A stretch of DNA of 30,442 nt from a virus. Of the stretch, positions 1,705 to 22,582 are shown piece by piece; position 1 is the first letter of the stretch, and each line of letters opens with the position of its first letter. The translations under genes were made by a program, and so were the position numbers. The stretch covers positions 1 to 30,442 of IMG/VR virus record IMGVR_UViG_3300031566_000249; one strand, given 5' to 3'. The notes below the pieces were generated by a model, which saw only the letters and a list, made by a program, of their open reading frames with translations, was not told the DNA's origin and did no database searches.

Positions 1705-2454
1705 CTAAGCGCTCGTCGCGCGCGTAACGTCGCTTGTCACCCTCACAGAACTCTCTGTAAGCGTTGTGATCATAGCGCCTATGAGAACCTGGACGTCGTA
1801 TGTGAGCGTCGTGCCGCTCTCAAGCTTGGCTGTCTCGACTGCTGCGAGCACGATCGTGATATCGCCGGCGTCCTCGTCATCCACCGTGATAGACCCATTC
1901 CCAGGGGTGCCCGCTTCTGCGCTGTTCAGGTAGAGCAGCCCACCAGTCTCGGTTATCTGTATGGTCGCCTTGGTATCTGGATAGCTCTCTGATGCTTTGG
2001 CTGTGAGCCAGAGATGCGTCCTGCCGGCGAGGCTCCCCAGACCAGTGAGCGAGACAGACAGATCGTCGCCACGATGGATCGTGATGCGACTACCCTCCAG
2101 CGCCGCCTGAACCTCAGCCGCTGTCTGGGTCAGTGTTCTCGTCGCATAGCCCCAGATCGCCGTGGGATGATCGGTCATCGGGTCTTGCTGCACCGAAAAG
2201 TTCGAGTCGAGGGTCTCCGAGCCTGTATAGACAGCCTTGGCAAAGTAGTCGTATGTGTGAGAGTCGGCGTCGGCATACTCTTTGGCATAGTGGCCGACAG
2301 TGCCAATCTCGGCAGTCGGGTGCTCCCCATCCCAGATTGTCGTGACTGTGCCCGTCGTCTTTGCCCTGGCATAGAGGTAGATCTCTATGTCAGTCAATGT
2401 CAGTCCTGTCGCGGGTTCACCATCGCTCTTTGTGAACAGTGCCGAGAATATCAT
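1705..2454 (-). CDS. Beta-rich virion surface or baseplate-like protein, 249 aa
   Basis: The N-terminal segment (residues 1-90) begins MIFSALFTKSDGEPATGLTL and has the alternating beta pattern of domains at the N-termini of phage appendage proteins. The C-terminal segment (about 125-245) starts ITIHRGDDLSVSLTGLGSL and has an Ig- or BppU-like rhythm, with strands separated by TKATIQIT and TYDVQVLI. No catalytic motif is seen. It is preceded by AAGGGGGT and follows the collagen-like fibre gene by nine bases. Context suggests it belongs with the fibre as an anchoring or decoration protein on head or baseplate. The family is not certain. Confidence 0.6.
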   Translation of the reverse strand: MIFSALFTKSDGEPATGLTLTDIEIYLYARAKTTGTVTTIWDGEHPTAEIGTVGHYAKEYADADSHTYDYFAKAVYTGSETLDSNFSVQQDPMTDHPTAIWGYATRTLTQTAAEVQAALEGSRITIHRGDDLSVSLTGLGSLAGRTHLWLTAKASESYPDTKATIQITETGGLLYLNSAEAGTPGNGSITVDDEDAGDITIVLAAVETAKLESGTTLTYDVQVLIGAMITTLTESSVRVTSDVTRATSA

Positions 2455-2463
2455 GATACCCCC

Positions 2464-6135
<3,672 letters not shown>

Positions 6136-6136
<1 letters not shown>

Positions 6137-7563
6137 CAGTACACCATCAGTCCTGCATAGGCCGCTGGGTGTCGGGGTATGCGTTCGCCGCCCGCCGTGT
6201 ACTCGATGTGGAGCTTGGCAGCCTTGGCAGAGTCACCGCTCCAATCAACAGATTGTCCGAACCCAGCCGCCTGTGCGTCAACTCCAATAATAGTGATGGA
6301 CGCAGATCCGAAGCCTAGGCGATTAACTACCTCCTGGATGATGCCGTCGAAGGAGTTTGCAGGGCTAATGATGTAGGCACTTGTACTTAGGGTCGCTTCC
6401 CAAGCATAGCTTGCATCTGTCTTCGGTAGGCCGTCAATGTCGCTGCTTTCAGGCACACTCCCATTGTCTGCGTCTTCTGCATAGAATACACAGTCCAGCA
6501 ATGTATAGCTTCCTGACGCCCCATATAGAGAGAACTGAGCATTGGTGATTTCCGTCTCTGGGTCTATGGTGATGCCCGTAAAACGCTGGGCTGTAACCAG
6601 AGTGCTTCCATCACCCCAACAGTGATATAGATACGCCCTATCTGTTCGCTCGGCACCACCATATGAATAACAATCATCTGCATCTGCCCCTACAATCTCA
6701 TCAATGTCAGGGTCAAAGATGATAGTGCCTTCAGGTAGAGCATTGAGAGCAAGAACGGGTGCCCCTACAAGGAGATAGTGCTGGCCGCCTACCTTGACGA
6801 ACCGCTTGCGCAGAGGAACTTGAACCTCTGTGTCATCCTCGGCCCATGCCCTGCTTGCTGGCAACGCAGTGACAATCTCGCCCTCGTGATTCTTGAGATA
6901 CAGTCTGGCCTGTCTCTCAAAGTCCGTATCGTAGTCTATGTCGCCGTCATCGTCGGCCAGCCCTGGCACCTGGCCCCAATCCACCTCATAGACCAGAACC
7001 AGATACGTGTCAGCAGCGGGATACGGTGGCGAAGGCATAGCGTTTCTAGCCGCCTGTGAGACCTTTATCTCCTCGTGCAACCTGTCGCCCGATACGTGAA
7101 CCTCAAAGTCCACGCCAGGGAAGAGGTTGGCCCAGGTGAGCTTGCCCAGAGGATTTGCTAGGAGATTGTTACCATGTTCAATGGTTTCCACAGTTGGTGT
7201 AGTGTAACTGGCTGTACGAATTGTCTCGAACTCCTTAGTGGCTATGTTAAGGTACGCTATGCGCTCTAAACGAAAACCTATGCCCACGCCCTGCTTCTCG
7301 GCAGCGAACCACCCGCCGTTCCGCACCAGGAACCGCCAGTGGCTCTTCTGCATCTCCCAGTCCCAGCCGGGCTCATCGGTGGGCACTATGCGCGGGTCAA
7401 CCTCCAGCCAGTCGCCAGAGCCTTCCGTCTCCTCATAGTGCAGGGACGTGCCGACGATGCCGTCCCAACTGAAGCTGTTGGTCGGCTGGTCGTCCTCGTA
7501 CAGCCGCTTCGTCTTGGACGTGCGGTTTCGTCTGGCTAGGACTTCACGCCACTCTTTAGCCAC
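6136..7563 (-). CDS. Beta-rich structural protein with DNRLRE-like C-terminal domain, 475 aa
   Basis: The start is a GTG at 7563 with GCGAGG seven bases upstream, inside the end of the portal gene (eight-base overlap). The N-terminal 300 residues are beta-rich with many Trp/Tyr and acidic residues (GDWLEVDPRIVPTDEPGWDW; LEEDDTEV-type runs near the middle). Residues about 320-460 (ITNAQFSLYGASGSYTLLDC, SFDGIIQEVVNRLGFGS, AAKLHIEYTAG) resemble the DNRLRE/CBM-like jelly roll found in phage and cell-surface proteins. No signal peptide. As first gene of the cassette with the glycosyltransferase and fibre, it may be a virion decoration or carbohydrate-binding protein. Function is inferred from fold resemblance only. 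Confidence 0.6.
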
Positions 7564-8947
7564 GATTTACCTCGCCATCTTCCTCTTCCGTCTCCTCCGG
7601 CTCTTCGCCTTCGCCCTGGGCAAACCGGCGTTGTGCTTCCACCATAGCCAGGGCTAGCGTAGTCTGCTTTTGCGCTTCCTCGTCCGCTTTGTCCGTCGCC
7701 AACTGCTGCAACTCTTCTTCGCTCCACCCTTCCCGACGCAAGGCAGTGACAAGAGGCAGTTTCTCCTCCGAGCTCAGTTGTCGGATCTCGGCCTGAGTCT
7801 TGGGCTGTACCGTCTCGGGCTTGGCAAAGGTGACGACGATTGAGTTCGGCTCGACCGGCGTCCCCGCCAACTCTAACAGGAAGGCAGCCAGTTGACGCCA
7901 GACGCTAGTGAACCGCTTGATGTAAGTCGCACACTTCTTGTTCAGCGGAGCCTCCAAGGCCATGAGCGCCTCACCAGATAGATCTGCTCCCTTGCCGAAA
8001 AAGTAGTGGTGAGGGGTGCGGCTAATCGCGCTGACTGCGTTCACCAGGTCGTCGATAGCGTCAAGGAAGTTCTGGAGAGGCGTAGCCGACAAGGATCCCA
8101 CGGAGGCAGCTTGTCCCGCTTCATCCCCAGCAGGGATCTGCCATATAGAGCCAGGAATGTTTGCGAGTGTTTTGCTGAGATCGTCATCGGTGTTGCTGAT
8201 GATATAACGCTGTAGGTATGCCCCGCACTCGGCGCTGACCATCATATCAGCCAGGAGCTTGTTGATCGCGGCCTGGAGCGGCGTGATGTTCTCGAGCTCA
8301 GAAATGCAGGCTCGACGCTCCCGCTGGAAGTGAAAGACTGGGACCTTTCCCATTGCATTGACAAGAGGTGCCGCGTCCATCATCACGAACGACTTGTAGC
8401 TACGCGGCACTCCCGCCTTGCTGGTTCTGTACCGCTCGAAGCGATCAGGATAGTAGAGATTGATGCGTCTGAAGCCATCCTCCTCTGTCCAGATCTTTGC
8501 GGCCCAGAGCTTTTTTCGAGGATTGTCTGGGTCGTACTGTACGCAAACGCAATCCGAGCTCACGTAGTAGGCCTCGACGTGCTCGTCTTCGTCGTTCCGC
8601 CAGGCGATGACAAAAGCCTCGCCTGTGACCAGGGCCGCTCGATGCACGTCTTCCTCGTCCAGGTCCAACTCCGTGCTTTGCCAGAGGTCTGTCAACTCCT
8701 TAGAGAGTGCTTTGTTGTCAGTGACGGCGACGCTGGTCAGCTCTAGGCGCTCGACAATCGAATCGACGATCACTCCACACCAATTCTGAATGAACTTGCT
8801 CTTGATGTTGCGGAAGATCTTTCGCAGGCGTGCCGTCGAATACTCGAGCGGGTGGTCGCCGTCGTAATAGTGCCAGAGCAGGGAGTACGGAGCCTGCTTC
8901 GCTATCAGAGCTTTGTAAGCCTTCTCGAGATCAGGGTTCTCGGCCAT
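7556..8947 (-). CDS. Portal protein, SPP1 gp6-like, 463 aa
   Basis: Length and architecture match the Phage_prot_Gp6 portal family, whose dodecamer forms the DNA entry vertex of the head. Diagnostic stretches are LLWHYYDGDHPLEYS near residue 22, FIQNWCGVIVDSIVERL around 52, LVTGEAFVIAWRNDEDEHVE around 106, and a C-terminal stem region with GKGADLSGEALMALEAPLNKK near 320. The C-terminus is an acidic Glu-rich tail. The gene starts three bases after the terminase stop, the usual terminase-portal order, with GGGAG about ten bases before the ATG. No odd residues seen. Confidence 0.92.
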   Translation of the reverse strand: MAENPDLEKAYKALIAKQAPYSLLWHYYDGDHPLEYSTARLRKIFRNIKSKFIQNWCGVIVDSIVERLELTSVAVTDNKALSKELTDLWQSTELDLDEEDVHRAALVTGEAFVIAWRNDEDEHVEAYYVSSDCVCVQYDPDNPRKKLWAAKIWTEEDGFRRINLYYPDRFERYRTSKAGVPRSYKSFVMMDAAPLVNAMGKVPVFHFQRERRACISELENITPLQAAINKLLADMMVSAECGAYLQRYIISNTDDDLSKTLANIPGSIWQIPAGDEAGQAASVGSLSATPLQNFLDAIDDLVNAVSAISRTPHHYFFGKGADLSGEALMALEAPLNKKCATYIKRFTSVWRQLAAFLLELAGTPVEPNSIVVTFAKPETVQPKTQAEIRQLSSEEKLPLVTALRREGWSEEELQQLATDKADEEAQKQTTLALAMVEAQRRFAQGEGEEPEETEEEDGEVNRG

Positions 8948-12939: not shown

Positions 12940-12994
12940 AAAAAAGCGCAGCCTCAGATCGCGGGGTTCTCCCGCATTGATCTGAGCCGCGCTT
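12940..12994 (-). terminator. Intrinsic terminator at the end of the late leader RNA
   Basis: On the minus strand a long stem (about 16 positions, one or two imperfect: AAGCGCGGCTCAGATC against GATCTGAGGCTGCGCTT) encloses a second short hairpin (GCGGG/CCCGC) and is followed directly by six T residues. Bases after the T run (GCCTCAGAT) can instead pair with the 3' arm of the stem, so an alternative fold exists. It stands between the promoter at 13.1 kb and the tRNA plus late genes. Confidence 0.85.
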
Positions 12995-13007
12995 ATTACG
13001 CTGACGG
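12986..13007. repeat. Direct repeat copy 1 (22 bases)
   Basis: Perfect 22-base match to 13047-13068, offset by 61 bases. Core GCTTATTACGCTGACGG on the plus strand. This copy overlaps the stem of the terminator. Confidence 0.95.
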
Positions 13008-13046
13008 ACTCAAACTACGCGATTGGTCGTTACCACAGAGCCGGTT

Positions 13047-13068
13047 GCCGCGCTTATTACGCTGACGG
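13047..13068. repeat. Direct repeat copy 2 (22 bases)
   Basis: Perfect copy of 12986-13007. In the minus-strand transcript it is the first repeat met, about ten bases after the predicted start of transcription. Confidence 0.95.
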
Positions 13069-14183: not shown

Positions 14184-14609
14184 CTAGCAGAGATCAAGCT
14201 GTCGGGTCACTGGCTCTGGGCCCTTGCCCGTCTCGAGCTCCTCGATGATCTCTCCCGTCTCCCGCAACCACCACTCCGCAAACACCTGCCGGTGGCACCA
14301 CTCATCGGGTTTGGTGAGATTCTCGTAGCACAATAGCACCAGATCCTTACCGCCGTTGGTCTCGCTGATCTCTTGGAACCGCTTGCTGATTGCTTTGGCC
14401 CCGATCCGATCCATCTTTTGGAAGTAGGCCACCGTGAACTTGCTGCGATCGTCGATGCGGAAGAGGTTCCCATATGGCGCCAGCCAGTTCAGTTCGACGA
14501 ACTGGAATCCCACGGGCCACCTCGGCTTGCCTACCGTGATTGCCACCTTGACCAGATCGGGCCGCTCTCTCAGCGCTCTGTTGTGAAAGCGACTGGTCCA
14601 GATTCTCAC
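14184..14609 (-). CDS. DUF488-like protein, 141 aa
   Basis: Residues about 2-40 (VRIWTSRFHNRALRE; VAITVGKPRWPVGF) and the stretch LVLLCYENLTKPDEWCHRQV near 100 match the DUF488 pattern, in which a strand ends in LLCxE and is followed by CHR. The biochemical role of the family is unknown. The start is a GTG at 14609 set by AGGAG seven bases upstream and lies about 34 bases after the predicted transcription start. Longer in-frame starts would place the promoter inside the gene; the extra translated segment is also seen over the related promoter at 18.2 kb, confirming it is non-coding. Confidence 0.75.
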   Translation of the reverse strand: MRIWTSRFHNRALRERPDLVKVAITVGKPRWPVGFQFVELNWLAPYGNLFRIDDRSKFTVAYFQKMDRIGAKAISKRFQEISETNGGKDLVLLCYENLTKPDEWCHRQVFAEWWLRETGEIIEELETGKGPEPVTRQLDLC

Positions 14610-14649
14610 TACCGTTCTCCTATCTGTTGTGGTTTTTTGCTGTGCTTTC

Positions 14650-14677
14650 ATTCTAGCAGACCCACCACCTGTGTCAA
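14650..14677 (-). promoter_or_regulatory. Sigma-70 promoter, copy A of a duplicated element
   Basis: TTGACA (14677-14672), 16-base spacer, TAGAAT (14655-14650). The spacer GGTGGTGGGTCTGC and flanks are shared with the promoter at 18157-18184. It drives the DUF488-like, helical and metallopeptidase-like genes. Confidence 0.85.
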
Positions 14678-14723
14678 GCGTTTTCGCGATGAGTTTTCGC
14701 GGAAAGGCGCCAGTTCGCCGGAA

Positions 14724-14744
14724 TTGACGGAAGTTGTTGGTCAA
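14724..14744. promoter_or_regulatory. Palindromic element upstream of promoter copy A
   Basis: A 21-base element with inverted ends TTGAC-N11-GTCAA, nearly identical to 18222-18242 (differences at two positions inside). It lies about 46 bases upstream of the -35, a position suiting an activator or a looping repressor. The binding protein is unknown; the LexA-type or PhoB-type proteins encoded here are candidates. Confidence 0.5.
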
Positions 14745-14763
14745 GTTCTCTGTCTGAGCCTGG

Positions 14764-15678
14764 TCATGGCGCGTTTGGCCTTGGCAGACTCACCCAGTTG
14801 CCTTTGACCAGCCGCTCAAACAGATTCCCGATGGCCCCGGCCTCTTGGTCATATCCAGCTGCTGCGAGAGTGCGGATGTATCGCACGAACACCTCCCCTA
14901 TCGAGTCGGTTGCCACCACCTGGACCAGAGGGAGGTCGGGTGCCTTTGGCACATCGATCTTGGCGTCCTTGCCCGAGGCGACCCACTGGGCTTCGGCTTC
15001 GACCTGCTGTACCCAAAACTGCTGCAGGTCGAATAGTGCGTCCTGGCTCTGTTCTTGGAGCAGGTCGCCCACAACTTGCCGAAACGCCCGAACGGTCATC
15101 CCGCTACTGTGGCTGTAGACCCGAAGAGCGATTCGCTGCCGGTTGTTGTCCAGGTCGGCCATCGCCTGACCATGACCTACGGGAAGCTGGCCCGAACCGA
15201 CCAGGCTTTGCGCCTCTGGAACGAGCTGGAGCAGAGACAGTCGGCGCCTGACAAGATCGAGGCTCACACCAGCCACGTCGGCCACCTGGGCCTCAGACCA
15301 GCCGAACTGGTCTATGCGGCGGCGATATGCGTTGGCTTCCTCGATCGGGGTCAAGTCTTCGCGTCCGATGTTCTCCGCCAGCATGATTGCTGACGCGGCT
15401 TCATCCGTCAGGGTTCGCACGATAGCGGGGATCTCCTGCCAGCCAAGGAGCTTGCAGGCTCGCCATCGCCGCTCGCCGGCCACGATCTGGTACTGGGTCT
15501 GCTGACCGCGTTCCATTTCGAGCCAATGGGCCATTGGCCTGATCGTTATAGGTTGGACCAGGCCGTGGGCCCGTATGCTCTCAGAGAGCTCCTCGAGGGC
15601 GACTTGGTCAAACGCCTGGCGGTCATTGTCACCGCGCCGTATGCTGTCGATCGGGATAGCCGTCAGTGTAGTGGTCAT
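14764..15678 (-). CDS. ParB/Spo0J-like DNA-binding protein, 304 aa
   Basis: The N-terminal ParB/sulfiredoxin fold is clear: IPIDSIRRGDNDRQ, LEELSESIRAHGLVQPITIR, YQIVAGERRWRACKLLGW (the GERRxRA CTP/DNA-sensing motif) and IMLAENIGREDLTPIEEA. A helix-turn-helix follows near 125-150 (WSEAQVADVAGVSLDLVRRR). The C-terminal third is unlike the canonical dimer domain and more variable. The start ATG (15678) overlaps the upstream stop (ATGA) and has TGGAGG five bases upstream. No ParA is in the window, so it may serve as a regulator, a partition factor for a plasmid-like prophage, or a DNA-modification accessory. The domain call is firm, the role open. Confidence 0.9.
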   Translation of the reverse strand: MTTTLTAIPIDSIRRGDNDRQAFDQVALEELSESIRAHGLVQPITIRPMAHWLEMERGQQTQYQIVAGERRWRACKLLGWQEIPAIVRTLTDEAASAIMLAENIGREDLTPIEEANAYRRRIDQFGWSEAQVADVAGVSLDLVRRRLSLLQLVPEAQSLVGSGQLPVGHGQAMADLDNNRQRIALRVYSHSSGMTVRAFRQVVGDLLQEQSQDALFDLQQFWVQQVEAEAQWVASGKDAKIDVPKAPDLPLVQVVATDSIGEVFVRYIRTLAAAGYDQEAGAIGNLFERLVKGNWVSLPRPNAP

Positions 15679-15908
15679 TTGAGCCTCCAGACTCCCGATT
15701 CTGGGACATGCACGGTGCGGGTGTTCGTTTTGGGGTCGTGAGTACCGATCCAGACATCCGGCGTGTCGCACCTCACAGTAAAGTGCTCAGGCCCCTGGCC
15801 TACCTTGGGCCGGCTGATGTCGAGGACAAGCCCACTAGCCTGGGTCTTTCCGCCATAGTCGTTGCGGTACGTGAAAAAGATGCGGTCACCGATGCGAATG
15901 TTCGTCAT
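15675..15908 (-). CDS. Hypothetical beta-rich protein, 77 aa
   Basis: Starts MTNIRIGDRIFFTYRNDYGG, a pattern of small SH3-like barrels (GDRIxxxY...GLVLDI), and ends VHVPESGVWRLK. GGAGGGAG precedes the ATG at 15908, which overlaps the upstream stop (ATGA), as its own stop overlaps the parB-like start. It is therefore part of a coupled four-gene run ending in the ParB-like protein. No known family recognised. Confidence 0.6.
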   Translation of the reverse strand: MTNIRIGDRIFFTYRNDYGGKTQASGLVLDISRPKVGQGPEHFTVRCDTPDVWIGTHDPKTNTRTVHVPESGVWRLK

Positions 15909-16147
15909 ACGTCTCCCTCCTGCCGTGCTTGGTCCCAAGCCTGGAGGCCGGCATCGCAGCAGCAGAACTTGGGTTCGTGCCCATCCATGATGATCCCCGT
16001 GTCGAAGCAGAGGCCACATTCGGCCCCACCAAGCAGCCTCTGACGGTGGGTAGTGTCAGAGGCTGCCTTCGGCGGATCCACTCGGACGGGCGTGCCCGAA
16101 AAGAGGGGCAAGTCCTCGCTTTCCCAGATCCGCTTTTGAGCCGTCAT
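15905..16147 (-). CDS. Small cysteine-rich, probable zinc-binding protein, 80 aa
   Basis: Residues about 44-64 contain CGLCFDTG and KFCCCDAG, a CxxC-CxC pairing that could bind one zinc ion, as in the DnaJ-type or treble-clef fingers of small phage proteins. The N-terminus (MTAQKRIWESEDLPLF) is acidic and may be disordered. Coupled by ATGA overlaps on both sides. Possibly a DNA- or RNA-contacting accessory of the ParB-like operon; function unknown. Confidence 0.6.
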   Translation of the reverse strand: MTAQKRIWESEDLPLFSGTPVRVDPPKAASDTTHRQRLLGGAECGLCFDTGIIMDGHEPKFCCCDAGLQAWDQARQEGDV

Positions 16148-16629
16148 AGTGCTTGCTCCTCAGAGCGCTGCTGGGGGGCAGCCAGCAACTCGACGGCCGC
16201 GAGGTGGTATTCCATCTTCTCGGGATCGATGTCACCAACGTATTCCTCGCCGATCCTCTGCAAGGCATCTGAGTCCCTGCCTAGGACCACGCTATCATCC
16301 GGGACCCCACAGCAGACTGTGACGAGCCCGCTCACGCCCTCATCACCAGGCATGATCACGAGGCCGCCACGGGCCTCGATCCAGGCCTTGCACAGGGCGT
16401 CGATGTCCTCAACCATGAGGCAGCGGAACCCGCCCCTGATGGGCTTGCCCCGCTTCCCGATGCCCTCAACGTTCACGGCGCCGTCGCCCTGGGGGTCGTC
16501 CTGCCCCCACTGGTCGATCCTCAATGCCGTGATCGGATAGTACCCGTTGCGCCCGACGATGTACGGGTCTGCGTACTTGCGCTGACCTACGGGAACCTCT
16601 ACTGTGACTCTGGCCTCAAACAGCTTCAT
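16144..16629 (-). CDS. Hypothetical protein, 161 aa
   Basis: Begins MKLFEARVTVEVPVGQRKYA; mixed alpha/beta with GGFRCLMVEDIDALCKAWIE near the middle and an acidic helical C-terminus ending in a Gln/Glu-rich stretch. No motif that I can name. The ATG at 16629 has AAGGGAGAG ten bases upstream, which rules out the longer frame. First gene of the tightly coupled run leading to the ParB-like protein. The 96 bases upstream, before the next gene, show no promoter I can support. Confidence 0.55.
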   Translation of the reverse strand: MKLFEARVTVEVPVGQRKYADPYIVGRNGYYPITALRIDQWGQDDPQGDGAVNVEGIGKRGKPIRGGFRCLMVEDIDALCKAWIEARGGLVIMPGDEGVSGLVTVCCGVPDDSVVLGRDSDALQRIGEEYVGDIDPEKMEYHLAAVELLAAPQQRSEEQAL

Positions 16630-16725
16630 GTCACTCTCTCCCTTCAGTGAATGGCCCCTTTGCCTCATCGGTGGACGCCTGGGCGGTGGCTGTCCAGACG
16701 CGGCCGGATGGCCGCGTTTCGGCTG

Positions 16726-17478
16726 TCAGATGGTGGGTCCAACGTGGTCGAGGATACCTTTGACCTTGAGCGCCAGCGCCTCGTCGCGAAGGTAAAGGTC
16801 AAACCGACAATTCTTGAACGTCGTAACTCGCGGCGCGGGCACCCAGGCCGTTTGGACTGTCCCAGGCGCTGGCTGCGAAGTGACGGCATGGTATAGAGAA
16901 CCCGTGCCGCCGAGGCCGAAATCCACGCCGTCCGCGTAGCGGATCACGGCCTCGAGGCCGAGTAGCCGGTCTCTGCAATCGTGGGCATTGTTAGACCACT
17001 CACGACCGAAGCTAATTCTCCAAGCGCAGAGACAGAGGGTAAGCCGAGAGCCTGACTGCTTGGCCTCGTACCGCCGCTCGCGCCATTCGCCGACGCGCTG
17101 CAGCATCTGGCGGGCGCTGTTGAGCATGTGTGTCCAGGTATCCTGCTGGGCGGTGGGCTCTACTTGCTCGGCGTACCATGTGGCGACGTCCACCAGGGCG
17201 ACATCAGCCTCTAGCGCTTGCTTTGCCCAGTCGTCGGGTTTGCAAGGCAGCCCAGGGAACTGCCGTCGTGCAACTTGGGAGACGGCCGCCGTAGCCGCCC
17301 GGGTCCGCGTTCCCTCGATGAGGGTGCGTAGGTGGTAGTGGTCCACGAGGGTGGCGTACTCGTTCCCAGTCACCCTCTGCCATGCAAGATTGGCTCGCTC
17401 GGCGTGGTCGAGTGCCCGCTGCAGGGATTCGATGCAGAGCTCCGCTTGTCTCAGTGCTTGGTTGCCATTCTCGGTCAT
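16726..17478 (-). CDS. Hypothetical phage protein, 250 aa (weak DUF4942-like feel)
   Basis: The N-terminal half is helical (MTENGNQALRQAELCIESLQ) with a long coiled stretch; the middle holds ARQMLQRVGEWRERRYEAKQ; the C-terminal part, SLYHAVTSQ then TTFKNCRFDLYLRDEALALK, resembles the end of DUF4942-type phage proteins (FKNGxxDLxF). That resemblance is faint and I give it little weight. AGAGGAG nine bases before the ATG sets the start. Gene neighbours (ParB-like operon to the left, structured-RNA region to the right) do not define a role. Confidence 0.55.
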   Translation of the reverse strand: MTENGNQALRQAELCIESLQRALDHAERANLAWQRVTGNEYATLVDHYHLRTLIEGTRTRAATAAVSQVARRQFPGLPCKPDDWAKQALEADVALVDVATWYAEQVEPTAQQDTWTHMLNSARQMLQRVGEWRERRYEAKQSGSRLTLCLCAWRISFGREWSNNAHDCRDRLLGLEAVIRYADGVDFGLGGTGSLYHAVTSQPAPGTVQTAWVPAPRVTTFKNCRFDLYLRDEALALKVKGILDHVGPTI

Positions 17479-17491
17479 TGTCGTTCTCCTC

Positions 17492-17692
17492 TCAGATGAG
17501 CCCCAGCACTATCATCCAACTGGGGCAGCCATGCTCGCAATAGCCGTCGGGCTCAACCCAACAGCCATCGGTCGCCTCGCAACCGCCTTCGGATTCCCAC
17601 TCCCTCAGCTGCTTCATGCTCGGTTGCGTTCTCCGCAACCTCTTGAGCATCCTGCGGGTGGTCAGCCTGCGTTCCTGTCCGTCTGTTGCCAT
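17492..17692 (-). CDS. Small Cys-rich conserved phage protein, 66 aa
   Basis: The C-terminal half, GGCEATDGCWVEPDGYCEHG and PSWMIVLGLI, is a motif I recognise from small phage proteins of unknown function (GCEAxDGCWVEPDGxCEHGHPSW). Four cysteines and one histidine suggest a zinc site. The N-terminal half is basic (RRLTTRRMLKRLRR) and may contact nucleic acid. AAAGGAGAT is eight bases upstream of the ATG at 17692; the longer frame runs into the structured RNA region and is rejected. It is the first gene after the candidate RNA. Confidence 0.7.
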   Translation of the reverse strand: MATDGQERRLTTRRMLKRLRRTQPSMKQLREWESEGGCEATDGCWVEPDGYCEHGCPSWMIVLGLI

Positions 17693-17726
17693 GACTCGAT
17701 CTCCTTTCTTGCTAGAATCGGACCAA

Positions 17727-17773
17727 AGGCGGTGGCGGGACTCGAACCAGTGCCGGGCCTGTTCCCACCGCCT
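17727..17773 (-). other. tRNA-like T-arm/acceptor-type hairpin
   Basis: A nine-pair stem (AGGCGGTGG/CCACCGCCT) encloses 29 bases that include ACTGGTTCGAGTCCCG, the consensus T-loop sequence. The D and anticodon arms of a tRNA are absent, and the T stem has mismatches, so this is not a normal tRNA. It may be a tRNA remnant or a tRNA mimic at the 3' end of the structured RNA. Confidence 0.4.
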
Positions 17774-18149
17774 GTTCGGGCCAGTCTCCACCCGGATCAC
17801 CAGCGCAATCTAGCCTGGCAGGCCAGCGTAATCTGGTGCGGTGCTGGGTGTGACTTGCCACGTGTTTCGGAGTCGGCACGCTAGGCCAACTCCTCTCTTC
17901 CCCTGGGTTGTAGCCCAGGAGGACGCTTTCGGGGCTCCTGTCCCCACTTCCCTTGACCTTTCCTTTCCGCCGGTTCCATTGCCCCCTATTTTGCCCTTCG
18001 CCTGTCCCCCAGTTTTCCGTTCCGATTCCTCATTCGGAGTTGGGCTCCGCTGGAAGTAGTGCTCGCTCTAGTCTGGCGGAGGATTGTTACCGGTGGTCCG
18101 TTCTGGTGTTTGTTAAGGTGACTGTGCTGTTTTGTATGGTATTCCGTAT
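17727..18149 (-). ncRNA. Candidate structured RNA, about 420 nt
   Basis: This stretch has no credible frame on either strand but is rich in stems on the minus-strand transcript starting at the promoter at 18157-18184. Visible stems (plus-strand coordinates): 18045-18050/18076-18081; 18021-18025/18034-18038; 17935-17940/17916-17921 or, exclusive with it, 17914-17919/17902-17907; 17885-17893/17869-17877 (nine pairs); 17833-17838/17798-17803 enclosing 17823-17826/17815-17818; and 17765-17773/17727-17735 (nine pairs). GGGG and CCCC near 17.93-17.95 kb could form a pseudoknot. Inside the last stem is GGTTCGAGTCC, as in a tRNA T arm. I cannot assign it to tmRNA, RNase P or a known phage RNA. It could also be a long 5' leader for the 66-aa gene. 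Confidence 0.6.
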
Positions 18150-18156
18150 CATCTTC

Positions 18157-18184
18157 ATTCTAGCAGACCCACCACCCATGTCAA
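18157..18184 (-). promoter_or_regulatory. Sigma-70 promoter, copy B of a duplicated element
   Basis: TTGACA (18184-18179), 16-base spacer, TAGAAT (18162-18157). Near-identical to the promoter at 14650-14677, including the spacer and about 20 bases upstream. Predicted start near 18150, at the beginning of the structured RNA region. Confidence 0.85.
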
Positions 18185-18221
18185 GCGTTTTTCGCATGAG
18201 TTTGCAACAGGTTTGCCGAAA

Positions 18222-18242
18222 TTGACAGAAGTTATTGGTCAA
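18222..18242. promoter_or_regulatory. Palindromic element upstream of promoter copy B
   Basis: TTGAC-N11-GTCAA, matching 14724-14744 at all but two positions. About 37 bases upstream of the -35. A further TGCCGAAAT at 18213-18221 adjoins it and recurs near 18278. Confidence 0.5.
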
Positions 18243-18327
18243 GTAGGAGTGAGCAGCCTGCTGTACTGTTGGGTGTGCCGAAATATGCCGACCTACGTCG
18301 CGCCATAGAGCAAGTGTTCTATCCGGG

Positions 18328-18461
18328 AAGCGCCGGAGAAGCGCCAAAAAGCGTACCCACTTCAACCCATTGCAGTAAAAGCGTCGAGGATGTATGGTGG
18401 TAAAGGGGGTCAGAAAGCGTATAGAGAAGCGTAAGAGGAGAAAGTGAGGCGGAGAGAAGCG
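18328..18461. repeat. Seven AAGCG boxes (iteron-like array)
   Basis: AAGCG, mostly as RAAGCGT or RAAGCGC, occurs on the plus strand at 18328, 18339, 18349, 18379, 18415, 18427 and 18457. Spacings are 11, 10, 30, 36, 12 and 30 bases, mostly near whole helical turns. The surrounding DNA is purine-rich. This resembles a protein-binding array such as an iteron origin, a partition site or an operator cluster. No gene is supported between 18243 and 18574; a long frame on the minus strand there has no ribosome site and its protein merely reflects the repeats. Confidence 0.55.
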
Positions 18462-18574
18462 TAAAGAATGGAATGGGCGTGGGTGAACATAAAGCTGAAG
18501 CTAGCAGACATAAGACGAATAAGGGGTCAAATGGCGGGCCAACAGCGGCTGTTTGTGCTGAAAAGGGTGTTGTT

Positions 18575-19000
18575 TCAGGGGTCACCGGGGACGACCACCG
18601 TGATCCTGATCTTGACAGTGAGTCCGGCGAAATCGATCACAAGCTGGCCCTTCTGGGGTTCTTCAAGGCGCTCCCCGAGCTCGAGGATCCGCCGCACGAT
18701 TGCCCTGGTCCTTGGCCCACCTTGCGACGTTTGATTGGCTGCCGATGACCTAGAAGGCTGGGATTCGCCGACGGAAATGCCCTGTGTGCCGGGCACGCTG
18801 AGACTCCTGCTTATGCCGGGATCTCTGTGAATGAGACCACGCCTCTGCAACGCGTTCAGATGATAGGTCACGGTCGATTTCGAGGGAATGTCGAGCGCCT
18901 GACAGATCTCGCGCAGCGAGGGCGCATAGCCCTTCTGCGCCACATATGAGTCAACGAACCCGAGAATCGCTTGCTGACGAGGATGCAGAGAGTCGTCCAT
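18575..19000 (-). CDS. LexA-type DNA-binding protein lacking the protease domain, 141 aa
   Basis: Residues 1-65 match the LexA N-terminal winged helix-turn-helix: LHPRQQAILGFVDSYVAQKG, PSLREICQALDIPSKSTVTY and HLNALQRRGLIHRD. In LexA a cleavage site and a Ser/Lys S24 peptidase follow; here only a linker (Ser/Gln-rich, 70-100) and a short helix-plus-strand tail (IVRRILELGERLEE; LTVKIRITVVV) are present. It could bind operators but could not self-cleave. GAGGAGG seven bases before the ATG at 19000 fixes the start. It lies beside the AAGCG array and duplicated promoter elements, which are plausible targets. It may act as a phage repressor or an antagonist of host SOS control. Confidence 0.85.
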   Translation of the reverse strand: MDDSLHPRQQAILGFVDSYVAQKGYAPSLREICQALDIPSKSTVTYHLNALQRRGLIHRDPGISRSLSVPGTQGISVGESQPSRSSAANQTSQGGPRTRAIVRRILELGERLEEPQKGQLVIDFAGLTVKIRITVVVPGDP

Positions 19001-19054
19001 GATTCGCCTCCTCAAGTGGTCACTCCGCCAAACTTCTCCAAGGCCTTTGCGATG

Positions 19055-19336
19055 TCATCGCTCATCAGTCAGCACCAGGCCCATAATGACGAAAGCCTCC
19101 TCGGATGAGCGAATCACGTCAACCTGGCCATGCCACCAGCCATGCCACTTTCGTTGCTTGGGCCTCAACTTGCCCTTTTCCGTCTTGATCTCGAACATAT
19201 AGTTGACGCCTCGAAACCCGACCGCGATATCTGGGCACCCCTCACCAACCTCATGCAAGTCCTCTACGGTGGCGCCGACGGCGCGCAGGTCTGCGACGAT
19301 GCTGGCCTGGTTTGCGTCAACGCGCTTGGGACTCAC
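19055..19336 (-). CDS. VRR-NUC-like nuclease, 93 aa
   Basis: A stand-alone PD-(D/E)XK nuclease of the VRR-NUC type: VDANQASIVADLRAVGATVE near the N-terminus, then GEGCPDIAVGFRG (catalytic Asp) and NYMFEIKTEKGKL (ExK), and LRPKQRKWHGWW. Length is typical. These cut branched or flap DNA in phage recombination/replication. The GTG start at 19336 is chosen because it overlaps the upstream methyltransferase stop as GTGA, the style used across this operon; a TTG seven codons earlier is an alternative. Confidence 0.85.
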   Translation of the reverse strand: MSPKRVDANQASIVADLRAVGATVEDLHEVGEGCPDIAVGFRGVNYMFEIKTEKGKLRPKQRKWHGWWHGQVDVIRSSEEAFVIMGLVLTDER

Positions 19337-20958: not shown

Positions 20959-21176
20959 CTCTCCACCAGCGTCCAGCCAACGCCCCGCTGCCAGGTCCGG
21001 ACCGCGTAGCGACCCTCGCCGACGCGGCACAAGGGGTCAATCACCACATCATACCCGTCGGCGAGGAGGCCATTCAGGACGCTGCGCTCGCCCCCCGTGC
21101 AGAAGGCCGCAAAGATGGAGCCAAAGATGGCGACCACTACCAGAAGCACGATCAACCCCTTCATTGCCTTGGGCAT
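20955..21176 (-). CDS. Membrane-anchored or exported small protein, 73 aa
   Basis: MPKAMKGLIVLLVVVAIFGS gives a positively charged start and a strong hydrophobic helix ending at AAFC (about residue 25), so it is either a signal anchor or a lipoprotein signal with Cys as lipid site. The remaining 50 residues are soluble (GYDVVIDPLCRVGEGRYAVR). AAAGGAG nine bases upstream sets the ATG at 21176, which overlaps the PhoB-type gene's stop by one base. Function unknown. Confidence 0.65.
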   Translation of the reverse strand: MPKAMKGLIVLLVVVAIFGSIFAAFCTGGERSVLNGLLADGYDVVIDPLCRVGEGRYAVRTWQRGVGWTLVER

Positions 21177-21517
21177 CACAGTTTCTCCTTTCGTTTGCCA
21201 CGAGTAATTGGGTCCACCGCCACAATCCGATACCCGAATCCCCATATGGTCACGAGCCTCGTTGGATGCGCAGGATCGTCCTCGATCTTGCGACGGAGTT
21301 TAGCCACATAGACTCTGAGAATCGACAGGCCCCCTTTGGGCGGCATGGGCCAGCACTGGAATAAAAGCTGTCGCGCACTGTAGACCCGGGGGCAGCCAGC
21401 CATCAGGAACTTGAGCAGGTCGGTCTCCGTGGGCGTGAGCTGGGCGCTCTTGGTTCCAACCTGGACATGGCCACTGTTCGGGTCCAGGATCAGATCACCT
21501 ATGCGCATCGTCTCCAC
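21176..21517 (-). CDS. PhoB/OmpR-type winged-helix DNA-binding protein without receiver, 113 aa
   Basis: The whole protein is the effector domain of a response regulator: MRIGDLILDPNSGHVQVGTK (N-terminal sheet), LTPTETDLLKFLMAGCPRVY (helix 1), RQLLFQCWPM, then SILRVYVAKLRRKIEDDPAH (recognition helix, with VYVAKLRRKIE) and VTIWGFGYRIV (C-terminal hairpin). The phosphoacceptor domain is absent. It could bind direct-repeat DNA constitutively and control phage or host promoters. Start GTG at 21517 with GGAGG six bases upstream; ATG three codons later is possible. It overlaps the upstream gene by 23 bases. Confidence 0.9.
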   Translation of the reverse strand: METMRIGDLILDPNSGHVQVGTKSAQLTPTETDLLKFLMAGCPRVYSARQLLFQCWPMPPKGGLSILRVYVAKLRRKIEDDPAHPTRLVTIWGFGYRIVAVDPITRGKRKEKL

Positions 21518-21794
21518 GTCTTGCCTCCGATCGATGTTCTATCAGGTCACGTAGGCCCCGAGTCCGAGGCCTTCCAGGTCGCATCAGGCACGGTCTGGTC
21601 CGCTCCAATCTTGCCAGTATCTTGCGAGGCCTGTCCCGGTCTAAGCCGATGATCTCTGCCAGGTCCGCTGCCCACTCAGTTGCCAAAAACCATGCCGCAT
21701 GTCTCCTATGCGCTTCCGAGCTCATGTCCAGAACGGCGCGCAACAGGATTGCGTTCGCCAGTCTGATGCAGGCGCGGTGGTCGAGATTGGTCAT
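21495..21794 (-). CDS. Hypothetical helical phage protein, 99 aa
   Basis: MTNLDHRACIRLANAILLRA and HAAWFLATEWAADLAEIIGL form a helical pattern (AIxLxAxxD...AxxFL.s.WxxxLxxxxGLD) seen in small phage proteins near replication genes. The rest is arginine-rich. The ATG overlaps the upstream replication gene stop (ATGA). Function unknown; the position suggests DNA replication or repair. Confidence 0.6.
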   Translation of the reverse strand: MTNLDHRACIRLANAILLRAVLDMSSEAHRRHAAWFLATEWAADLAEIIGLDRDRPRKILARLERTRPCLMRPGRPRTRGLRDLIEHRSEARRGDDAHR

Positions 21795-22582
21795 GGTCCC
21801 CTCGTCTCTTGGGTGCGCTCATATTCCGCCTCCGCTACTGTTGCGACATACCCCCAAGTGTGGCCGGCGCACTCTAGTGCCTCATTGAGAGCATACTGGG
21901 CAATCGCTGGGCCATAGTCACGCACCAGTTTGCCCCAGCGCTTTCGGTCTGATTCGGTGATCGGGCGTTGGAGTATATCAGCGATTAGCTGTTCAGGGAT
22001 TTCAGAACAAGCGGCTGTAGCTGCTGCTGCTGCTGGGTCAGGGACAGGGTCAGGGACAGGGTCAGGGTCAGGGACAGGGTACTGTCCGAAAAGGTGAGGC
22101 CCTTGGCTGAGCACCTCAGGTATCTGGTCACCTGAGACGCCAGCTGAAGGCGACCAATGGGTGCTGGCTTGTGCATTACCTGACTGCCTGAGCCAGTTGT
22201 CCTCCAGATAGTGACCATTGAGCCGGGTTCGCACGTGATCTTGCCAACCCGGGGGCGGGGCCCACTTCGAGTAGTTAGCCCACTGTGGCCTCTGGTGAGT
22301 CCACCAAGTTCGGATCTGGAGCAACGCCTTGCCCCGAGCTTCGTAACGATGCAGCCGCTGACTCTCGATGAACCCCTCGAGGGCGCCCTCGATCTCATTG
22401 ACGGACGTGTCCTTGTACGGGAAAAGGGCTGCCCTTATGAGCCTGGCATTGTCGAGGAGTCTGCCCTGGTCATCCGCGCATTTGGAGAACAGGCCAATCC
22501 AAAGTGCCTGGCCGAAATACGACAGGGGACCGAACCATTCATCCTCCCAGATAGCAGACGTGATCATGCGTCTGTTGGCCAT
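21791..22582 (-). CDS. Replication-initiator-like (DnaD/O-like) protein, 263 aa
   Basis: N-terminal MANRRMITSAIWEDEWFGPL, then LSYFGQALWIGLFSKCADDQ, GRLLDNARLIRAALFPYKDT and ALLQIRTWWTHQRPQWANYS make the winged-helix pattern found in phage replication initiator/DnaD-like proteins. A low-complexity linker (PDPDPVPDPVPDP then polyalanine, about residues 170-190) joins it to a C-terminal helical domain (LIADILQRPITESDRKRWGK), probably the helicase-loader contact. Preceded by AGAGGA. It is the best candidate for the replication initiator here and might act on the AAGCG array. Confidence 0.65.
   Translation of the reverse strand: MANRRMITSAIWEDEWFGPLSYFGQALWIGLFSKCADDQGRLLDNARLIRAALFPYKDTSVNEIEGALEGFIESQRLHRYEARGKALLQIRTWWTHQRPQWANYSKWAPPPGWQDHVRTRLNGHYLEDNWLRQSGNAQASTHWSPSAGVSGDQIPEVLSQGPHLFGQYPVPDPDPVPDPVPDPAAAAATAACSEIPEQLIADILQRPITESDRKRWGKLVRDYGPAIAQYALNEALECAGHTWGYVATVAEAEYERTQETRGP
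22015..22080. repeat. GCT and GGGWCA microsatellites in the initiator linker
   Basis: A run of GCT triplets (22021-22035) adjoins about eight units of GGGTCA/GGGACA up to 22080. They encode the polyalanine and Pro-Asp linker of the replication protein. Prone to slippage, so linker length probably varies between relatives. Confidence 0.85.

Follow-up and report, generated by a model that had tools for sequence, protein, structure and literature searches.

The gene-free, T-poor stretch of about 460 nt that lies 3' of a promoter on the minus strand (~18150 to 17693) of an IMG/VR virus record of 30,442 bases, the whole of which was analysed and is here called the window, is best explained, at a probability of roughly one in two, as the unusually long (about 458 nt, predicted to be untranslated) 5' leader of a phage operon, possibly processed at a tRNA-like mini-helix. 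This reading is favoured by a duplicated promoter cassette with an upstream dyad, an extended -10 element far above chance, the lack of a convincing coding frame, and the long stems, local folding signal and mini-helix of the 3' half of the stretch. Against it stand an ordinary overall fold, the lack of any homologue and hence of an argument from conservation, and the fact that relatives of the first gene of the operon lack this leader.

Genomic setting and anatomy of the operon

All recognised genes of the record lie on the minus strand, and the recognised proteins comprise a collagen-like tail fibre protein, a portal protein, a terminase, ParB-like and LexA-like proteins, a replication initiation protein and an SbcC-like protein. 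The leader is flanked by the LexA-like gene (18575-19015) and a gene for a 66-aa Cys-rich protein, and the features in and around it are as follows:

18328-18462 (+), array of seven same-strand AAGCGY words, a short way upstream of the promoter (word count against simulation)
18211-18244 (-), operator-like block ACTTGACCAATAACTTCTGTCAATTTCGGCAAAC with a TTGAC/GTCAA inverted repeat, kept in the twin cassette (alignment)
18157-18184 (-), predicted promoter TTGACA-16-TAGAAT with extended -10, TGCTAGAAT (motif scan)
17950-18150 (-), leader 5' half, poor in T (5-12%) and unstructured, most windows giving a z around 0 or positive
17869-17946 (-), three consecutive hairpins (17946-17930, 17921-17900 and 17893-17869; stem count, z = -2.94 for 17868-17950)
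17783-17855 (-), long interrupted hairpin with two CYAGATTRCGCTGG repeats (z = -1.93)
17728-17772 (-), tRNA-like mini-helix of 45 nt with a 7-bp acceptor GGCGGTG/CACCGCC and T-loop GGTTCGAGTCC (sequence, pattern expectation)
17701-17706 (-), ribosome-binding site AAGGAG, 8 nt before the ATG (sequence)
17691-17718 (+), convergent promoter-like site ATGACT-16-TAGAAT with TG and a weak (4/6) -35 (motif scan)
17492-17692 (-), 66-aa Cys-rich gene, the first of the operon (ORF, relatives, codon usage)
14764-17478 (-), co-directional genes for a 250-aa unknown protein, a 174-aa unknown protein and a ParB-like protein (gene calls, domain scan)
14764-15771 (-), the ParB-like gene itself, with ParB_N and HTH_ParB domains (domain scan)
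14647-14746 (-), twin operator-promoter cassette, preceding a GTG gene that starts at 14609 (cassette alignment)

An operon leader is the simplest anatomy because no terminator follows the stretch, which is succeeded instead by AAGGAG, an ATG and co-directional genes including that for ParB. Promoter, ribosome-binding site and gene are all found on one strand, and a scan of 17000-19200 revealed no terminator-like site. This arrangement fits one of the suggestions of the first-pass annotation, namely that the stretch is a long regulatory leader for the 66-aa protein, since the ribosome-binding site and ATG come directly after the last hairpin on the same strand. A rho-independent terminator was read from the sequence at about 13171-13134 (-), and between this operon terminator and a tRNA-Arg gene there are two perfect 22-nt repeats (CCGTCAGCGTAATAAGCGCGGC), 61 nt apart, at 12986-13068 (-). 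The 66-aa ORF is, on the basis of its relatives, a real gene, with residues 23/24-66 being 70-81% identical to proteins from five IMG/VR contigs. Its coding region also harbours the strongest RNA folding signal nearby (17540-17659 (-), z = -5.6), which sits around the conserved codons for DGCWVEPDGYC; the hairpin, partly common to contig L004, probably arises from the protein sequence itself.

A duplicated operator-promoter cassette

The first-pass annotation had credited the region with its own consensus promoter, and this is borne out by a predicted sigma-70-type promoter at 18184-18157 (-), TTGACA-16-TAGAAT with an extended -10 TG, which agrees with consensus at 11 of 12 positions. A second copy is found at 14696-14647 (-), with 88% identity over 50 nt and further identity upstream, where both cassettes carry the block ACTTGACCAAYAACTTCYGTCAATTYCGGCRAAC with its TTGAC/GTCAA dyad. 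The strongest evidence for the promoter is internal, in the form of the duplicated cassette, and its assignment is well supported at the sequence level. While the duplication itself can be read directly in the sequence, we infer that the promoter is regulated and used twice by the phage, with transcription of the leader starting at about 18150 (-). The twin promoter copes with a leader of only about 35-40 nt ahead of its GTG gene, a point against the long-leader reading.

Three exact copies of the word TGNTAGAAT are present in the window (0.39 expected), at both promoters on the minus strand and at 17710-17718 (+), where it is directed into the leader region. The third TGCTAGAAT, at this plus-strand position, faces into the region and may represent an antisense promoter with a weak -35. 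If this weak convergent site at 17691-17718 (+) were active, it would yield an antisense RNA.

Coding potential, composition and folding of the leader

Judged by the phage's own codon usage, no frame within ~18150-17693 is convincingly coding, in agreement with the gene-free status first assigned to it. Most known genes of the phage score 0.13-0.26, and the reading as a hidden gene was rejected on the codon scores; one frame broken by stops contains a single weak coding-like stretch. The minus strand is poor in T over the first three 75-nt blocks (12, 11 and 5% T) and becomes purine-rich towards the 3' side of the leader's 5' half, with 79% purine at 18000-17926 (-).

The folding of the RNA is uneven. 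Taken as a whole, the 424-nt RNA 18150-17727 has an ordinary minimum free energy (z = -0.75, with 23 of 100 shuffles as good), and the complementary strand folds better relative to its own shuffles (z = -2.38). The local signal is confined to about 17740-17950 in windowed z-scores, reaching about -2 to -2.9 in the 3' half (17950-17728), and is essentially lacking in the 5' half. The series of at least seven stems of 5-9 bp described at first is thus only partly upheld: stems of at least 5 bp with loops of up to 12 nt number 6 against 5.1 in shuffled sequences (p = 0.37), whereas those of at least 7 bp exceed chance, with 3 against about 0.5 (p about 0.02). To list seven stems in order does justice to the sequence but is weak evidence.

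A tRNA-like mini-helix

The 45-nt element at 17772-17728 (-) follows the order GGCGGTG ... GGTTCGAGTCCCGC CACCGCC. Its GGTTCGAGTCC T-loop motif lies 24 nt after the start of the GGCGGTG acceptor strand, and the spacing of the T-loop, the five following bases and the seven-base acceptor strand is exactly tRNA-like, a pattern expected 0.007 times per window in random sequence of the same composition. The D and anticodon arms are absent. Because only three of five T-stem pairs form and a 3' CCA is lacking (UUUGG follows the acceptor), the mini-helix would be a poor substrate for RNase P; neither the complete 5-bp T-stem nor the RCCA 3' end for this enzyme is present. ARAGORN and the Rfam models detected no tRNA or tmRNA here, and strongly relaxed ARAGORN thresholds gave merely an implausible tRNA-Phe-like fold and nothing credible. 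Rfam aligned the element to mascRNA at 15.1 bits, far from the gathering score of 42.5. We read 17772-17728 as a tRNA-like mini-helix or the relic of one, and not as a tRNA or tmRNA; of the tRNA-like end noted initially, the T-arm and acceptor in tRNA register stand, and an actual tRNA does not.

None of about 85,000 species genomes contains the 22-mer of the mini-helix, and its 20-mer is present in ten, several copies lying within tRNA genes of unrelated phyla; in a few bacteria, 20-21 nt are identical to the 3' ends of genuine tRNAs. IMG/VR contigs with the 21-nt tRNA end were considered and rejected as relatives: they carry an odd tRNA, a suppressor-like one and, in four contigs, one tRNA-like element, and show no similarity to the leader. 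Some of these loci are unusual in their own right. In L012, a 347-kb IMG/VR contig, the tRNA at 5818-5895 has the anticodon CTA (tRNA-Pyl according to ARAGORN) and may be an amber suppressor tRNA. Contigs L009 (around 6077-6190 (-)), L010, L011 and L013 contain the same element of about 112 nt with a long acceptor stem, a perfect T-arm and no recognisable anticodon arm, which was missed by ARAGORN and, in L009, the contig tested, by Rfam at gathering score. In Streptomyces and Dyella (L027 around 2341-2360 (-) and L029 around 7665-7684 (-)), only a few bases separate a tRNA 3' half from a tRNA 5' half that comes next and shares the GGCGGTG acceptor, representing odd partial tRNA arrangements.

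Searches for families and homologues

The first-pass annotation could not match the stretch to a known large phage RNA, and Rfam searches at gathering score and with E up to 10 returned chance matches only (the mascRNA alignment, tRNA-Sec at 13.6 bits, and miRNAs), and no riboswitch, T-box or attenuator family was recognised in the leader. No homologue was found by DNA search of phages and plasmids, in IMG/VR by promoter pattern or hairpin 18-mer, or through protein anchors (the 66-aa gene, terminase, the 250-aa gene, ParB and the replication protein); a search of 396 genomes from the phylum of the Acidimicrobiia genome G009, run without a positive control, likewise gave no match. The sole near relative, L014/L023, found by terminase, has the packaging and tail part in common at 66-75% DNA identity and does not share the leader region. 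In the five contigs with relatives of the 66-aa protein the upstream sequences are different and the leader is absent, so the leader and this gene are not an old unit.

Comparison with known systems

GOLLD and ROOL RNAs have an elaborate structure supported by covariation and are often found near tRNA islands (PMC12286853). The leader resembles them in being a large non-coding stretch of a phage genome with some tRNA association, but it lacks a covariance model match, its structure is limited to the 3' half, and in place of a tRNA island there are two tRNAs about 5 and 7.6 kb away. In the non-RepA mycobacteriophages RedRock, Alma and LadyBird, noncoding RNA regions of 400-500 nt adjoin parABS and are required for extrachromosomal maintenance of the prophage (PMC7157519). 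A noncoding region of comparable size, with predicted transcription, lies close to a partition gene here as well; however, the adjacency of parA and parB without a rep gene that marks such phages was not found. ParB stands alone, no ParA was detected among the proteins scanned from what may be a fragmentary contig, the record has a gene for replication initiation, and transcription would proceed in the direction of the operon instead of diverging from it. Like mascRNA-type structures and RNase P model mini-helices, the leader element combines an acceptor stem and T-arm with reduced or missing D and anticodon arms, although mascRNA is a eukaryotic family and the T-stem here is imperfect. The arrangement of promoter, long untranslated RNA, ribosome-binding site and co-directional genes is that of long bacterial and phage operon leaders, differing in that no known regulatory family is recognised.

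Alternative explanations

An unlikely but substantial rival is that the region acts in cis as DNA, with protein-binding sites (the AAGCGY array, the paired operator blocks and the CCAGATTACGCTGG repeats), and that the leader RNA is incidental and functionless. The seven AAGCGY words fall within 135 nt at spacings of 11, 10, 30, 36, 12 and 30, where 300 simulations gave a random maximum of 3, and AAGCGY also overlaps the -35 region in each of the twin promoters (18183 and 14676). Besides the LexA-like helix-turn-helix protein encoded next door, a 113-aa ORF at 21176-21517 (-) contains a PhoB/OmpR-type C-terminal winged helix (Trans_reg_C, E = 3.7e-19) and is too short for a receiver domain. PhoB/OmpR-type winged helices bind direct repeats about 11 bp apart, a mode of binding that we tie by inference to the array, whose repeats are possibly iterons or binding sites of a phage PhoB-like regulator. 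The ordinary overall fold also suits a DNA function; however, the array is outside the transcribed stretch, and the mini-helix in tRNA register and the long hairpins are left unexplained. Rather improbable is an RNA-primed or RNA-controlled replication origin, where the T-poor, G-clustered transcript would form an R-loop primer or pair with antisense RNA from 17691-17718. The 200 nt with the highest AT content in the window (18101-18300), a strand change of the purine excess at about 18.2 kb, the iteron-like array, R-loop-type G clusters at 18010-17982, the better folding of the opposite strand and the mycobacteriophage precedent are all in line with such an origin. Yet R-loop-type motifs abound in this genome, several of the 21 sites lying a long way from any likely origin, and were judged non-specific; a replication initiation gene exists (21791-22582), no ParA turned up among the proteins scanned, and the antisense -35 is weak.

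The reading put forward first, a stand-alone structured phage RNA of about 420 nt, is given little credence. Its own promoter, non-coding sequence, structured 3' third and tRNA-like end, together with the phage context and the tRNAs elsewhere in the window, are compatible with it, but the overall z, the unstructured 5' half, the absence of a terminator or evident 3' end, and Rfam matches no better than chance with no homologue run against it; a new large ornate class resembling GOLLD or ROOL is not supported. A related, similarly doubtful idea is that 18150-17728 is an undescribed phage RNA which RNase P would release at the mini-helix and which would either function in trans or prime or regulate replication at a neighbouring origin with iterons. 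It is common for phage attP sites to reproduce the T-arm and acceptor end of a host tRNA, and the identity to real tRNA 3' ends would fit a tRNA-like end that is an attP core or the relic of a tRNA gene 3' end and not an RNA element. This is very improbable, given that no integrase occurs among the scanned proteins, that the 22-mer is missing from the species genomes, and that the 5' acceptor strand, unneeded by an attP core, is in register.

Proposed function and implications

In the preferred interpretation as an operon leader, RNA polymerase would start at about 18150 from the regulated, twice-used promoter and produce a transcript with a T-poor, mostly unstructured 5' half followed by a series of hairpins. 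With no terminator in its path, it would read through into the ribosome-binding site of the 66-aa gene and onward across the ParB-containing operon. RNase P, the tRNA-processing enzyme, could cut on the 5' side of the T-arm/acceptor mini-helix, whereby about 380 nt of leader would be set free as a separate RNA and the operon mRNA would keep a short structured 5' end. Both this cleavage and any regulatory effect of the leader are putative.

If the region were instead an origin, RNA-based replication control would reach beyond the mycobacteriophages. Homologues are needed before a large ornate RNA of a new kind is claimed any further. If the mini-helix of the leader is a processing signal, a host tRNA-processing enzyme would separate the leader RNA from the operon mRNA. 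At present, the region stands as a clearly marked control region, with a leader of unusual length, in an uncultured phage.
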